Assembly (NCBI RefSeq): GCF_000817735.3
Contig: NZ_JTJC03000005.1
Coordinates: forward strand, 62,001-126,000
DNA length: 64,000 nucleotides
Direction: 5' to 3'
Source: Scytonema millei VB511283
GTDB taxonomy: Bacteria > Cyanobacteriota > Cyanobacteriia > Cyanobacteriales > Chroococcidiopsidaceae
Position numbers and translations under genes: made by a program
Part shown: one piece after another, positions 39,183 to 46,596 of the stretch
How the letters are laid out: the number at the start of each line of letters is the position of its first letter
Position numbering within the stretch: position 1 is the stretch's first letter
Notes under the pieces: model-generated
What the model was told of the DNA's origin: nothing
Databases searched by the model: none
The model's input: the letters and a program-made list of their open reading frames with translations, nothing else

Positions 39183-39262
39183 TAGTTGGTTGTTGGTTGT
39201 TGGTTGACGGTTGACAGTTGACAGTCGCTCAATCGCTGACAACTGATAACTGACAACTGATT
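39183..39262. repeat. GTTGGTT/GTTGACA/CTGATAA heptamers
   Basis: Repeat array filling the spacer between the uvrB stop and the flavoprotein start. Confidence 0.88.
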
Positions 39263-41259
39263 TAATGTCCCAGCAATTTATCCCGCAGATGCTTGATGCG
39301 ATCGCGATATTTTGCTGCTTCTTCAAATTCTAGATTTTTTGCCGCTTCTTTCATCTGCGCTTCCAGTTGGGTAATCAATTCTGGAATCTGTTCTAAGGGT
39401 AAATCGCTGGCTTGTTCGTAGACGGTTTCTAATTCTTGGGTGTTTAAGCGGCGCGACACGGCTAAGAAGGATAAAATCGCGTTACTCGATTTTTTCACGA
39501 TCTGCTGGGGCGTAATTCCGTGCTTTTCGTTATATTCGATTTGGATTGCCCGTCGTCGTTCTGTTTCAGAGATCGCCTTTGCCATGCTATCTGTGAGGTT
39601 ATCGGCGTACAAAATCGCCTGTCCCCGCACGTTTCGGGCTGCCCTACCGATAGTTTGAATCAGCGATCGCTCTGCCCGCAAGAATCCTTCTTTATCCGCG
39701 TCTAAAATTGCCACTAGGGAGACTTCGGGTAAGTCTAATCCTTCCCGTAACAAGTTCACTCCTACCAGGACATCAAAACTACCTTCGCGCAAATCTTGCA
39801 AAATTTCGATCCGCTCGATCGAGTTAATTTCAGAGTGGAGGTAGCGGACGCGAATACCGTGGTCTTGAAGATATTCTGTCAGGTCTTCTGCCATCCGCTT
39901 TGTCAGTGTTGTTACTAGCGTCCGTTCGCGCCGATCCACCCGCTGTTTAATTTCACCTAAAAGATCGTCAATTTGCCCCTCGGTAGGACGGACGAAAATC
40001 TCTGGATCGACTACACCTGTAGGACGAATCACTTGTTCTACTACTCGTCCCTCTGAAACTTCTAATTCCCAATTACCAGGGGTAGCAGAAACGAATACAC
40101 ACTGATTCACTTTTGTCCAAAATTCTTCTGATTTTAACGGGCGGTTATCGGCGGCGCTGGGTAGGCGGAAACCATGATCGATCAAGACTAACTTACGGGC
40201 GCGATCGCCGTTGTACATCCCCCGGATCTGGGGTACGGTGACGTGAGACTCATCTACAACCAACAGCCAATCGTTCGGGAAATAATCGATCAAACACTCT
40301 GGCGGTTCCCCTGCTTGTCTTCCCGCTAGGTGACGGGAATAGTTTTCTACGCCATTGCAATAGCCGACTTCACGCAACATTTCTAAGTCATAGCGCGTCC
40401 GCTGGTCGATGCGTTGCGCTTCAAGCAACTTATTCTCTGCTTCTAATTCAGCTTTACGCTGTTTTAGTTCCGCCGCGATCGCCTCAAGCGCGACTTCTAA
40501 CTGTTCTTCTGGAGTGACGAAGTGTCGCGCTGGATAGATATTCAACGCTTCCAAACTCTGAAGGATTTCCCCTGTCACTGGATCGACATATCGAATTGCG
40601 TCGATCTCGTCCCCAAAGAATTCTACTCTGACGATTCGGTCTTCGTAAGCGGGTCCAATTTCTAATACATCACCCCGCACGCGGAATTTTCCCCGCCCCA
40701 TTTCTACATCGTTGCGGTTGTACTGTACGGATGCTAAGCTGCGTAAAATTTCCCGCTGGTTCACTTCCATTCCCACTTGTAAGGGAATCGAGGCGCGGAG
40801 GTACTCGGCTGGCATTCCCAAGCCATAAATACAACTGATAGAAGCAACGACGATCGCGTCTCGCCGTTCAAAAAGCGATCGCGTAGCGGAGTGGCGCAGC
40901 ATATCGATCTCGTCGTTGATCGAAGCACTTTTTTCAATAAATGTATCGGTGACAGGGATGTAGGCTTCTGGTTGGTAGTAATCGTAATAACTGACAAAGT
41001 ACTCTACCGCATTATTGGGGAAAAACTCCCGCAACTCGTTACAAAGTTGGGCAGCAAGGGTTTTATTGTGAGCGAGTACCAGCGTTGGCTTGCCAATCTT
41101 TTCAATCACCGCAGCCATTGTAAACGTCTTACCCGTTCCCGTAGCTCCAAGTAAAGTTTGATAACGATGTCCGGCTTGAATGGACTTTACAAGTTGAGCG
41201 ATCGCCTGCGGTTGATCGCCTGTAGGTGTAAACGGCGCTTGAAGGCTAAATTGCATCAT
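39262..41259 (-). CDS. uvrB: UvrABC excinuclease subunit B
   Basis: A 665-residue UvrB: Walker A G-A-T-G-T-G-K-T at 38-45, the damage-binding beta-hairpin with [10 protein letters not shown], helicase motifs including V-D-E-S-H-V-T and R-A-A-R-N-V-R-G, and a C-terminal UVR motif ([14 protein letters not shown]). It hands damaged DNA from UvrA to UvrC in nucleotide excision repair. Full length, no anomalies. Two adjacent ATGs (41259, 41256) are possible starts. Confidence 0.97.
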
Positions 41260-41378: not shown

Positions 41379-41551
41379 TTAATATATCTTAACATATTTA
41401 AGTTTTTCTATGTTTAGCCCGTTAAGATACCTATAACTATATAATCTTTTTTAACGTTAAACTCAGATAGCAGTAATTAACCGATAAAAAGCACTCGGAA
41501 TTTTCTCTGGCTATTTGCTATTGCTCGATAGAAACTTAGAGGTTTGCGATT

Positions 41552-42082
41552 ATGACTAATGCCAGTAATGCTAGAAAAAATGGTAATGGTTCCACCAGCC
41601 GCAGATCGCGTGCCAAGAGTACTGATTCCAAGGCAGAGAACCAAGTGGTGACTGGCGAGATTGAAACTTCAGCTATAACTGTCTCTGCCGATGGCAAGCC
41701 ACTTGCTGGTGGTAGCGTTGTCAACGTGGCAGGACTGCGCCCCATCGCCGCAAGTAGTATGGTGGTGCGAGAAGAAGTGAACATGCATGGGATTCGCCCC
41801 ATCATGGCTAGCGATTTTGAGGTATTTGACACGGTAAATCTTTCCGGTATCCGCCCGATTGAAGCAAACCATTTAGAAATTGTAGACACGATCAACTCAG
41901 CCGGATTGCGTCCAATTATGGCAGACGAGTTCAAGTACTCCAACATTATCCCCTTGATGGGCGATCGCCCCATCGCCGAAGATGCCTTCGATTTCTCCAA
42001 CACATATGTATCTTCTGGAATGCGTCCAATTGCTTCTAATGAAATCGATAACTATCCATATTTAATGGGTTATATCGATTAA
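41552..42082 (+). CDS. Protein with six exact 19-residue G-x-R-P-I repeats, unknown function
   Basis: The 176-residue protein has a basic, Ser/Asn/Lys-rich disordered start (1-30), a short linker, then six tandem repeats of exactly 19 residues at 57-75, 76-94, 95-113, 114-132, 133-151 and 152-170, ending L-M-G-Y-I-D. The consensus is [V/I]-N-x-x-G-[I/L]-R-P-I-x-A-x-x-[F/M/L]-x-[V/F/Y]-x-[D/N]-T. Regular length and alternating hydrophobic positions suggest a solenoid or repeated beta-hairpin. I do not recognise a named domain. AGAGG lies before the ATG, and a terminator follows. It stands alone upstream of the CsbD gene. Confidence 0.88.
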   Translation: MTNASNARKNGNGSTSRRSRAKSTDSKAENQVVTGEIETSAITVSADGKPLAGGSVVNVAGLRPIAASSMVVREEVNMHGIRPIMASDFEVFDTVNLSGIRPIEANHLEIVDTINSAGLRPIMADEFKYSNIIPLMGDRPIAEDAFDFSNTYVSSGMRPIASNEIDNYPYLMGYID

Positions 42083-42110: not shown

Positions 42111-42142
42111 AACCTAGTTGTTTAATGCAGCTAGGTTTTTTG
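42111..42142 (+). terminator. Terminator after the R-P-I repeat protein
   Basis: A 10-bp stem (AACCTAGTTG with CAGCTAGGTT, one G-T pair) over a short loop, followed by TTTTTTG. Confidence 0.88.
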
Positions 42143-42859: not shown

Positions 42860-43297
42860 GTGAATTTCATGCAGCACTTTCGTAGAATTGCGATTGTTCT
42901 TTCAGCAATTTTCTTACTGACAACAACAGTTGCTTGTAGTAGCAGCGTACAAGCAAGGCAACCCAATGCGAATGTACCAACAGTTAGTCGCAGCGCCGAT
43001 TACGGACAAATTGCCCGCGGAAATACACCAGTTGGGCAAGATTTCGGGACTTGGGTAACTCGCACGGGTAAAGGACTGGTTCAAGACGCATATGTAAGAG
43101 ACAACAATAAGCTAGGCGTAGTTATTACCCCAGATGTTCGTCCGAATGAAGTGAAGCCATTAGCGAAATCTTTGGCACAAGGGTTTCATAAAAACTTCCC
43201 TAATCAGGACTTGACAGTTTTAATGTACGCTCCTGACAAGAAACTGATTTTGACAGCACAATACGATGTGCAAACAAATCAGATTCAATACAAGTAG
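42860..43297 (+). CDS. Predicted lipoprotein, unknown function
   Basis: A 145-residue protein with a type II signal peptide: a basic start, hydrophobic core and lipobox T-T-V-A-C near residue 26, so it should be anchored in a membrane. The mature part has the conserved-looking segment D-Y-G-Q-I-A-R-G-N-T-P-V-G-Q-D-F-G and a C-terminal half rich in K and D (K-P-L-A-K-S-L-A-Q-G-F-H-K). The start is GTG at 42860, placed 9 bases after AGGGAGG; an ATG three codons later is too far from that site. Family not recognised. Confidence 0.82.
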   Translation: MNFMQHFRRIAIVLSAIFLLTTTVACSSSVQARQPNANVPTVSRSADYGQIARGNTPVGQDFGTWVTRTGKGLVQDAYVRDNNKLGVVITPDVRPNEVKPLAKSLAQGFHKNFPNQDLTVLMYAPDKKLILTAQYDVQTNQIQYK

Positions 43298-43376
43298 TGT
43301 CATTTGTCATTTGTCATTTGTTAAGTTGCTAACGATCGATGCCAAGTGAACGGTTTAAAAAAAGGAGATTGGAGTT

Positions 43377-43904
43377 ATGACTAGCAGCGACAAATACAGA
43401 AGGGAAATCATGAACGATCTAGCGCAAGGTAACACGGAAAACCTTGACGCATATTCCTCAAATAATCCAGAACAAGAGTACGAAAACTTTGACGATTTCG
43501 CTCAAAGATCGTCATACGATCAGCGCCGTCAAATGTTCGGTAATTCTTTACAGCACGAGCGCATTCCTCCAGCGCAAATGGAGCCAGAATTGCAGAAAGC
43601 GATCGCCCAAATTAAACCCAACGAACGGGATGATGTGGCGCGTGCTTTCTTTAAGCATTTAAGTAAGAAAGGACTCCACGATCGCGATTTAGAACAACAA
43701 CTGGGACTTTCTACTCACAATCCCAATCGCATGAGCGCTGATGATGTAAGCAAATTGGCTGCTTATGCATATCACAACCATCCAGACATCTTTCAAGAAG
43801 TCATGGCAGAACAACCTGCTATTATCAAGTTCCTGAGCAATCCTCTAGTAGCAGCCGTATTGGGTATCGCTGCGGCTAAGTGGCTAGGTAGCCATCGGAA
43901 ATAA
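43377..43904 (+). CDS. Conserved hypothetical protein with C-terminal hydrophobic segment
   Basis: A 175-residue protein: an acidic, Asn/Gln-rich first third, a central helical region with M-E-P-E-L-Q-K-A-I-A-Q-I and D-V-A-R-A-F-F-K-H-L-S-K-K-G-L, and a C-terminal hydrophobic stretch (about 150-168) ending in basic residues. AAAGGAG is placed well before the ATG. I do not recognise a named domain. Its position after csbD and the lipoprotein suggests co-induction under stress; this is by neighbourhood only. Confidence 0.78.
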   Translation: MTSSDKYRREIMNDLAQGNTENLDAYSSNNPEQEYENFDDFAQRSSYDQRRQMFGNSLQHERIPPAQMEPELQKAIAQIKPNERDDVARAFFKHLSKKGLHDRDLEQQLGLSTHNPNRMSADDVSKLAAYAYHNHPDIFQEVMAEQPAIIKFLSNPLVAAVLGIAAAKWLGSHRK

Positions 43905-43945: not shown

Positions 43946-43971
43946 TAGGGGCGCACAGCTGTGCGCCCCTA
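43946..43971. terminator. 26-bp perfect palindrome between convergent genes
   Basis: TAGGGGCGCACAGCTGTGCGCCCCTA is printed here in two parts: TAGGGGCGCACAG and CTGTGCGCCCCTA are perfect reverse complements with no loop. It overlaps the stop codon of the unknown minus-strand gene, and similar palindromes are dispersed in cyanobacterial genomes. A bidirectional terminator is the simplest reading. Confidence 0.75.
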
Positions 43972-45009
43972 CAGATTCAAAACTCGTATCTCTGGTGAAA
44001 GCGACATCTTAACTGCTAGTTTTTCCCAGGCTTTAATTGTCGATCGCAGGGGTTGAACTATGATTTGCATCACTCGATCTACCGTAGAATGAAACTTTTT
44101 TAATCTGTGCTTATTACATTCATATCCTGCCTGTTCGCTGCGATCGCGAAAAATATAAATATCTTTCCCATCAGAATATAGGCATTCATATTCAGGGTTC
44201 TCATCAAAATTTGAATAATGTTTTATACACGTACAAGCTTTATCAATTTTACCTACAGATAGTCTAAATATTAGCCTTATTGTATTTTTAGCATAAGCTA
44301 TATAATTATTGAGAATACAGTTGAGATGCTGCCGCTCTTGGGGTAAAGACTTCACCTTTTCATGTAGAAGCAATAGATGTAAGTTTGCTGCGAATGTAAA
44401 AGCTCCCAATCCTAGTAATCCTAAACTTTGTGCTTGTTGAACTAAATCTTTAAGTGCATCATCTAAATCGGTTTGTAGAGTTATTTCACAGCAATTTGCT
44501 ACAGATGAAAACGATTGAATAAAATAGTTATCGAGTAGTTCTTTCAGCAGCTCGATTTGGGTTTCAAGTGTTGCGATCGCCCCTAAATCTGCTGGCTGTC
44601 TGACAATCGTACTAATATCATTAATAGTATTGTTTGTAATTTGTTGATAATCTAATTCTTGAAAGATAAACTGAAGCTGCTTCAAATCTTTTTGTTCTTC
44701 TACTAAAGCATCTGTAGTTTTCTTGAGAAGCGATTGCCATGTAATTGCGAAAACATTATTGGAATGAGGCTCGGAAGAACTACGCTCGCCAAAGTAAGTA
44801 GAGCGATCGCTTGGCGTAACGTCGGCAAACTCTGGAGGTGGCATTTTACTAACTTCTACTTCCAGAGGATCGCCAATAGACACGATCTTGACATCTTGCA
44901 TGATGTCTCCCACTAACTGTCTCTGCTTGGGACTGAGTTTTTTCCAACTACTACCCCAAAGCTTAGCAACTTTTTGATTTTGGATATCGCGCTCGTTTTC
45001 TGAGGTCAT
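43969..45009 (-). CDS. Hypothetical protein, unknown function
   Basis: A 346-residue protein (350 if an upstream ATG at 45021 is used). The N-terminal third is polar with K-L-S-P-K-Q-R-Q-L-V-G-D-I and a Pro/Glu-rich stretch; a middle helical region (about 100-260) carries A-Q-S-L-G-L-L-G-L-G-A-F-T-F-A-A-N-L-H-L, possibly amphipathic; the last 90 residues hold several Cys (A-C-T-C, Y-E-C, Y-E-C-N-K-H) and a basic tail. No family recognised. Base composition is more AT-rich than its neighbours, suggesting transfer. Its stop codon lies inside a palindrome. Confidence 0.75.
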   Translation of the reverse strand: MTSENERDIQNQKVAKLWGSSWKKLSPKQRQLVGDIMQDVKIVSIGDPLEVEVSKMPPPEFADVTPSDRSTYFGERSSSEPHSNNVFAITWQSLLKKTTDALVEEQKDLKQLQFIFQELDYQQITNNTINDISTIVRQPADLGAIATLETQIELLKELLDNYFIQSFSSVANCCEITLQTDLDDALKDLVQQAQSLGLLGLGAFTFAANLHLLLLHEKVKSLPQERQHLNCILNNYIAYAKNTIRLIFRLSVGKIDKACTCIKHYSNFDENPEYECLYSDGKDIYIFRDRSEQAGYECNKHRLKKFHSTVDRVMQIIVQPLRSTIKAWEKLAVKMSLSPEIRVLNL

Positions 45010-45348
45010 AAGACAACTCATGAGTCAAAATTGTAGATGCAGCTTGGCAAAAATCAACAGCGTTTTTCTCACTGATTAAACTTTTTGATGGGAAAGTGCG
45101 ATCGCTTTGTTAAGGTTGTTGCAATTGGATTGTGCTTGTTGGTTTGTCTCTTTTGTTAAGCTCGTTAACATTGACAAGTATGCAACTAAGCAATCAATAG
45201 ACTCTGAATGTTTCTGAGTTTACAGCTATGAGAATAGACATGCTTCAAGTAGTATATCTACTGAGCTAAAATGTGACTGTACGGTAGCGGACGTAGACTC
45301 AAAAAAACTCAACAGTTAATGAAGCGGCGAATTAATTGGGATTGCGTG
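45010..45348. other. Spacer between the hypothetical and Crp/Fnr genes
   Basis: About 340 bp, AT-rich, unique. The promoter for the leftward hypothetical gene must lie here; no structured element is evident. Confidence 0.5.
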
Positions 45349-46077
45349 TTAAATATTGTGTGTTAAACGTATCAAGCGATCGAACTCATTTTTGACGACT
45401 TTGTAACACTCACAGGCAGTAGATTGCAGCAGTTGGCGATCGACTATAGCAATTTTGCCCCGGGAATAACGAATCATTCCCGCTTGTTGTAAAGCTGTAG
45501 CTGCTACAGTTACCCCAGAACGGCGGATACCTAACATTTGAGCGATAAATTCTTGAGTCAGTAATAATTGCTCCGACTCAATTCGATCTTCGATTGATAA
45601 CAACCATCGTGCCAAACGTTGCTCTACAGTGTGGCGGCTGTTACAAGCAGCTGTTTGAGCCACTTGAGTAAATAAAGCTTGGGTATAGAGCAGTATGAGC
45701 CGATATAGCACTCCGTGGCGATCGAACTCGGCTTTGAGGCGATCGGCTGTTATTCTTATGGCACTACCAGGAATCTGCACGATCGCCTGAGTTGTGGCGC
45801 TGCCACCTCCCCAGCAGACTGGTAAACCTACTATGCCATCTCTTCCTATCACACCTACTTCTAAAGTCGCTCCGTCCTCCATCAGCGATACCATTGAGAC
45901 TAATGCTTGAGTGGGAAAATAAATGTATTCGATTATCTCGTTAATTTCATGCAAAATCTGCCGATGAGATAAAGAGACAACTTCTAAGTGAGGTAGTAGG
46001 CGCTGGTATTCCTCCGTTGGTAAAGCAGCCAGCAAGTGATTTTTTCGATAAAGCTCGTTAGCTTCAGAGTCCGACAC
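45349..46077 (-). CDS. Crp/Fnr-family transcription regulator (copy 1)
   Basis: About 242 residues: a cyclic-nucleotide-binding-like beta roll (about 15-120, with Y-I-Y-F-P-T-Q and E-V-G-V-I-G-R-D-G) and a C-terminal Crp-type helix-turn-helix (L-T-Q-E-F-I-A-Q-M-L-G-I-R-R-S-G-V). The E-x(2)-R-x(6)-R-S/T ligand signature of CRP is not clear, so the effector is unknown. The start is taken as GTG at 46077, preceded by TGGAGGA and matching the paralogue's length; an ATG at 46158 would add a basic, unlike extension. Divergent from a paralogue at 46597. Confidence 0.9.
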   Translation of the reverse strand: MSDSEANELYRKNHLLAALPTEEYQRLLPHLEVVSLSHRQILHEINEIIEYIYFPTQALVSMVSLMEDGATLEVGVIGRDGIVGLPVCWGGGSATTQAIVQIPGSAIRITADRLKAEFDRHGVLYRLILLYTQALFTQVAQTAACNSRHTVEQRLARWLLSIEDRIESEQLLLTQEFIAQMLGIRRSGVTVAATALQQAGMIRYSRGKIAIVDRQLLQSTACECYKVVKNEFDRLIRLTHNI

Positions 46078-46596
46078 GTAAAGCTTCCTCCACCGAGTTA
46101 AATGAAAATATTTGAGGATAAACTTGCTTGAATAACGCAAGACAACTTTTGACATCACTCCAGCGTTAGTTCCGAGGATGTCGGTACTGCCACCTATCGA
46201 GCGTTGTAGGAAGATGAAAATGAGGGGAAATCAAATATTTGAGCTATTTACTACCAGCTTGCTTTTACCAAGTAATAGCATTGACACAGCAACCAATATC
46301 GAATGTGAAGAATGAAGATCTGGTATTGGATTGGAGCGATAAATCGATAATATTTTGACTTCATGCAATCGGGGTTACGGACATGGATCGACTTTTCACT
46401 TCAAAATAGTACACAAACCTTACGCAAACCAAAGTACGATACCGTACATACACGACCTGTTATACTGAATTTGTATGTATTCTTAAGTAGTATTTAAGAT
46501 TTACTTCTCGGTGGGAAATATAATTAGCAAAAGCACTTCCCTGTCCTCTGCCACACCTTTTCCTTATAAAAAACAAATGGCTAAGGACATCTGCCA
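46078..46596. other. Divergent spacer between the two Crp/Fnr genes
   Basis: About 520 bp. It contains GTA-N8-TAC at 46434-46447 and TATACT at 46461-46466. Both regulators could bind here and control each other. Confidence 0.55.
46434..46447 (+). promoter_or_regulatory. NtcA/Crp-type palindrome GTA-N8-TAC
   Basis: GTACGATACCGTAC fits the NtcA consensus GTA-N8-TAC. A TATACT -10-like element begins 14 bases later, closer than in classical NtcA-activated promoters, so repression or a Crp/Fnr paralogue site is also possible. Confidence 0.45.

Follow-up and report, generated by a model that had tools for sequence, protein, structure and literature searches.

The gene at positions 41552–42082 on the forward strand of the window (the whole 64,000-nucleotide stretch of the Scytonema millei VB511283 genome analysed here) begins with an ATG preceded by a GAGG-like ribosome-binding site and encodes a protein of 176 amino acids followed by a stop codon. 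Comparison with its relatives indicates that this GxRPI protein is a member of an old single-gene family that is unrecognised by Pfam and NCBIfam. Tentatively, we favour its being a cytosolic scaffold or docking protein: a β-solenoid with coils of 19 residues that would bear an Arg-Pro ladder and a C-terminal docking peptide.

The repeat array, its C-terminal tail and the family

The protein contains six 19-residue units (41720–42061, forward strand), which from V57 onwards read VNVAGLRPIAASSMVVREE, VNMHGIRPIMASDFEVFDT, VNLSGIRPIEANHLEIVDT, INSAGLRPIMADEFKYSNI, IPLMGDRPIAEDAFDFSNT and YVSSGMRPIASNEIDNYPY. Their RP dipeptides fall at residues 63, 82, 101, 120, 139 and 158, a spacing of 19 throughout, and each has a glycine two residues before the arginine and an isoleucine after the proline. 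An earlier note on this DNA had reported six exact units here, and both their coordinates and their spacing are indeed exact. When the protein was shuffled 100,000 times the highest count of G-x-R-P was three, which together with the orthologues found across the phylum (see below) rules out a chance or low-complexity artefact. Two same-genus genomes carry orthologues at 93% and 96% identity. The units share only 4–11 of their 19 residues, and synonymous variation is seen in the codons for their G, R, P and I. These features, and the orthology of units by position described below, rule out a recent tandem duplication of DNA.

To compare species, the units of 31 representative core proteins were numbered from the C-terminus; units with the same number are 44–55% identical between species, versus 28–35% for units with different numbers. 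The median dN/dS across 20 Nostocales sequences is 0.15 for the repeats plus tail, versus 0.36 for the N-terminal part. Among diverse members 133 of 155 unit spacings are 19 and ten are 20; other values are rarer and some of them reflect missed units. The G, R and P columns of the unit are 100% conserved in these proteins because they define the search pattern, while I or V occurs in about 99% of units, Ser or Asn at position +8 in about 83% and Thr or Ser at position +15 in about 64%, a column pattern that looks typical of stacked solenoid rows. The suggestion of the earlier note that the array reflects structural selection and not recent duplication is supported by the positional identities, the low dN/dS, the constant spacing and the single coil predicted for each unit in two structural models. 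The comparisons indicate that the array is old and under purifying selection.

The C-terminal tail (…DNYPYLMGYID-COOH, 42041–42079, forward strand) is conserved to its last residue across the family, a feature absent from the earlier description. All but two of 134 distinct family open reading frames (132) terminate exactly in [FY]-[LIVM]-D-stop, and the C-terminus of the uvrB-linked core form is [MI]G[FY][LIM]D. It is unusual for conservation to extend as far as the free carboxylate, which suggests that the C-terminus itself is recognised, and the free end may be read by a putative partner. At the other end of the protein, residues 1–56 (41552–41719, forward strand) form a low-complexity region that is probably disordered (pLDDT below 50 for residues 1–54) and net positive in this species. 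The basic N-terminus described earlier is a property of the window protein, whose first 30 residues carry a charge of +5; it is not a family trait, the family mean being about 0. No 19-residue segment of the window protein is strongly hydrophobic (the highest mean hydropathy is 1.25), making a cytosolic location likely.

Within the phylum, a tblastn-type search of 292 genomes detects relatives in 95, and a family profile built from 15 diverse members matches 122 of 386 genomes. The profile-positive genomes comprise 101 of the 105 sampled in the window's own order and 21 elsewhere in the class; the small-genome family f25 has no match listed in this search. Eighty named loci come from the Nostocales and allies, including Anabaena, Nostoc, Fischerella and Calothrix. 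Plasmid-borne copies, which are divergent, are confined to nine plasmids of Nostoc, Calothrix and Aulosira. Phages and viral contigs gave no family match and Rfam no hit, and on these grounds we rejected a phage origin and a regulatory RNA, respectively. Pfam, NCBIfam and PHROGs searches name no family for the protein, the family profile run against PDB sequences returned zero relatives, and we found no paper that contains the motif strings or describes a cyanobacterial 19-residue RPI repeat. The earlier remark that no named family with this pattern was known to its author is supported at the level of Pfam and NCBIfam, but a 19-residue β-helix repeat with a similar register has already been described in AIDA-I/TibA (PMC3835316).

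The family has two forms. The window protein represents the core form, in which units approximate to [IVL]N[LI]SG[NIL]RP[IV]AASxLxVxxT and the proteins end in LMG[FY][LI]D. The second form is more acidic (mean repeat charge about −13) and has D-G-x-R-P-I units; LMG is missing from it, although a terminal [FY][VI]D is usually retained. The window's own genome possesses one acidic-form paralogue with six D-G-x-R-P-I units (L002; G000 contig 11, 10200–10526, outside the window), which lies directly downstream of psaB, a location shared by the two same-genus genomes. At L027 (G062 contig 6) the protein has nine units, is strongly acidic, shows a higher-order pattern of three units and gives a marginal bactofilin match. 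Family proteins range in length from 100 to 270 amino acids and have no β-barrel domain, and exact matches to G.RP[IVLMT] number from about 2 to 9 depending on the lineage. Retention in about 96% of the sampled genomes of one order, combined with an invariant tail, suggests that this family without a Pfam or NCBIfam entry probably has a basic cell role.

Predicted fold and candidate function

AlphaFold2 models of the window protein (43 sequences) and of a Fischerella relative (49 sequences) give the same picture of the repeats, with two strands per 19 residues and zero helix. Both models have a pLDDT of about 70–75 in the central coils, falling below 50 at either end (means 52.5 and 57.6). In the window model units 5 and 6 and the tail are below 50, which leaves units 1–4 as the confident portion. 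Structure prediction for a solenoid had been proposed in the earlier note, and both models return a β-solenoid with one coil per unit at moderate pLDDT. Foldseek found nothing at E 0.001 or better for either model. On a second look with VIA, the window model fits a bactofilin best (Z 10.1 with an rmsd of 2.0 over 91 residues), and the best matches of the Fischerella-relative model are pectate lyases, a bactofilin (Z 9.2), pentapeptide solenoids and other β-helices. AlphaFold tends to render regular repeats as solenoids. Solenoid-type repeats also reach Z values of 9–10 easily through their common arrangement, so we take these values as support only for a β-solenoid with one coil per unit, a prediction that is moderately supported.

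The repeats, their periodicity, the conservation of repeats and tail, and the genome context are direct observations, from which we infer how a scaffold might work. Each 19-residue coil would consist of a strand of about five residues, a two-residue turn, a second strand of about five residues and a seven-residue GxRPI loop. Stacking of the coils would align the invariant Gly, Arg and Pro residues in one row, creating an Arg-Pro ladder along one edge, with rows of Asn, Ser and Thr inside or beside it. The disordered N-terminus could act as a loose tether of the solenoid rod, and the C-terminal [FY]-[LIV]-D-COOH peptide would dock to a putative partner that reads the free C-terminus. In this reading the arginine ladder would serve as a binding surface and the tail as a docking signal. 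We are more doubtful of a broader version, according to which the protein would be a near-universal cyanobacterial core solenoid that uses the Arg-Pro ladder and the free [FY][LIV]D to scaffold a putative conserved complex, possibly one related to light or the thylakoid. The invariant C-terminal peptide and the arginine row offer two direct handles toward the partner of the GxRPI protein.

The main rival of the scaffold reading is a disordered multivalent array, in which the GxRPI sequences would be short motifs each bound by the same partner pocket, stringing several partner molecules together. GxRPI would pass equally well for a linear motif of an unstructured chain. Such an array would account for an invariant GxRP amid mostly variable positions, for the lineage-dependent number of exact motifs and for the long low-confidence ends of the models. 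We nevertheless consider it unlikely, because flexible linkers tolerate changes in length and the strict spacing of 19 fits a folded coil better, as do the hydrophobic alternation within the unit (L/I at +10, V/I at +12) and the Thr/Ser at +15.

It is improbable that the protein is instead a bactofilin-like polymer, a cytoskeletal filament or patch that small β-solenoids would build by end-to-end stacking. Bactofilins are cytoplasmic and consist of a small β-helix with disordered ends; they rank first among the structural matches to the window model and near the top for the second. A nine-repeat paralogue in another genome also has a marginal match to the bactofilin family PF04519 (E 0.038, 14.7 bits against a gathering threshold of 27.9). 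However, Z values of 9–10 lie within the range that repeats give by common arrangement, and PF04519 has no match in the window protein or anywhere in its own genome. We know of no GxRPI in bactofilins, nor of any comparable conservation of their tails.

Genomic context and candidate regulation

The divergent neighbour of the repeat gene is uvrB (39262–41259, reverse strand), identified by its Pfam UvrB domains and separated from it by 293 bases. The two genes are adjacent in 76 of 80 Nostocales loci and for 18 of 43 repeat open reading frames from diverse lineages, and the orientation is always divergent. Several lineages carry the repeat gene away from uvrB, with other neighbours, showing that the link is not obligatory.

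Between the two genes lies a candidate regulatory region of about 70 bases (41404–41470, forward strand, approximately −148 to −82), which is alignable across the Nostocales relatives even where uvrB is absent. The HLR1 site, KTTACAWW-N2-KTTACAWW, is bound by RpaB (PMC13421787). An HLR1-like site just upstream of the block in the window is weak (3 mismatches, P 0.13), while five Nostocales relatives (L115, L119, L125, L129 and L131) have the perfect consensus at a steady position about 150–170 bases upstream. Control of the repeat gene by HLR1 and RpaB is thus only a lead, suggestive in relatives and weak in the window.

An accessory role in DNA repair linked to UvrB, such as that of a UV or light-stress factor, would explain both the divergent adjacency in the Nostocales and several other lineages and the HLR1-like sites of some relatives. 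This is nonetheless the least probable of the functions considered here, because the gene stands apart from uvrB in several lineages and because the upstream block accompanies the repeat gene at L052, a locus without uvrB.

An intrinsic-terminator-like hairpin of 11 pairs followed by a T run (42111–42137, forward strand) lies just 3′ of the stop codon; two such hairpins were found in the region, against 0.9 expected by chance. Three genes follow downstream: one CsbD-like (PF05532), one lipoprotein-like and one unnamed, whose product carries an ENFDDFAQR motif. The description of the repeat gene as followed by stress-type genes is accurate in that the CsbD gene is real, but the hairpin intervenes, and the genes probably do not form an operon with it. 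An operon extending into the CsbD and lipoprotein genes is accordingly unlikely, yet these neighbours are conserved in several relatives. We find no support for the suggested connection with stress, desiccation or nitrogen, the repeat gene having its own apparent terminator and its most conserved neighbour, uvrB, being on the other side. The lipoprotein-like and ENFDDFAQR-motif genes (42860–43904) are kept together 3′ of the repeat gene in several relatives and match no Pfam or NCBIfam family above cut-off. Facing the stress-type genes, on the reverse strand, are an unnamed 350-amino-acid gene and a Crp-family regulator (43969–46158).

Comparison with known systems

As modelled, the GxRPI protein would be, like the bactofilins, a small solenoid with disordered flanks, but the PF04519 profile is unmatched in the window protein. 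Solenoids of the pentapeptide-repeat (Rfr) type, among them MfpA and cyanobacterial Rfr proteins, have about 20 residues per coil and give Z values of about 8.7–8.9 to the second model. The tandem A(D/N)LXX of pentapeptide-repeat proteins (PF00805) is, however, absent from the GxRPI protein, which has no Pfam match. β-Helical ice-binding and antifreeze proteins provide the top Foldseek rows of the second model, none of them significant (best E 0.04, TM-scores about 0.2), and, unlike them, the GxRPI family is general in cyanobacteria and not cold-specific.

The unit itself resembles that of the AIDA-I/TibA autotransporters, whose passengers carry an imperfect 19-residue repeat (PMC3835316); the TibA passenger structure is a β-helix (PDB 4Q1Q, PMC4358343). 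TibA is the sole PDB sequence match up to E 10 of the nine-repeat paralogue, with a gap-free alignment over 90 residues whose E of 1.1 is not significant alone. When the cyanobacterial unit profile was placed on the TibA units, one of 19 registers scored positive (+6.9, versus −3.5 for the next best), a score matched by none of 150 column-permuted controls. The NCBIfam AIDA-I model (NF033176) touches 4 of 15 family members far under its cut-off (best E 0.0017; 14.4 bits against 1200), and no AIDA family is among the Pfam matches of GxRPI proteins. The two groups share an imperfect 19-residue unit with the register I-N-x-x-G-x-[QR]-x-[VI]-x-S. They differ in that AIDA-I and TibA are large secreted outer-membrane proteins without GxRPI, whereas the GxRPI protein is small and does not have the autotransporter architecture of signal peptide and C-terminal β-barrel: its 176 residues end right after repeat 6 and include no strong hydrophobic stretch. 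Profile and register comparisons therefore indicate that the GxRPI unit resembles the AIDA-I/TibA coil but that the protein is not a member of that family. We count the resemblance in favour of the β-solenoid reading. If the solenoid prediction is true, a soluble β-solenoid with 19-residue coils would tie the coil of secreted adhesins to a cytosolic core gene.
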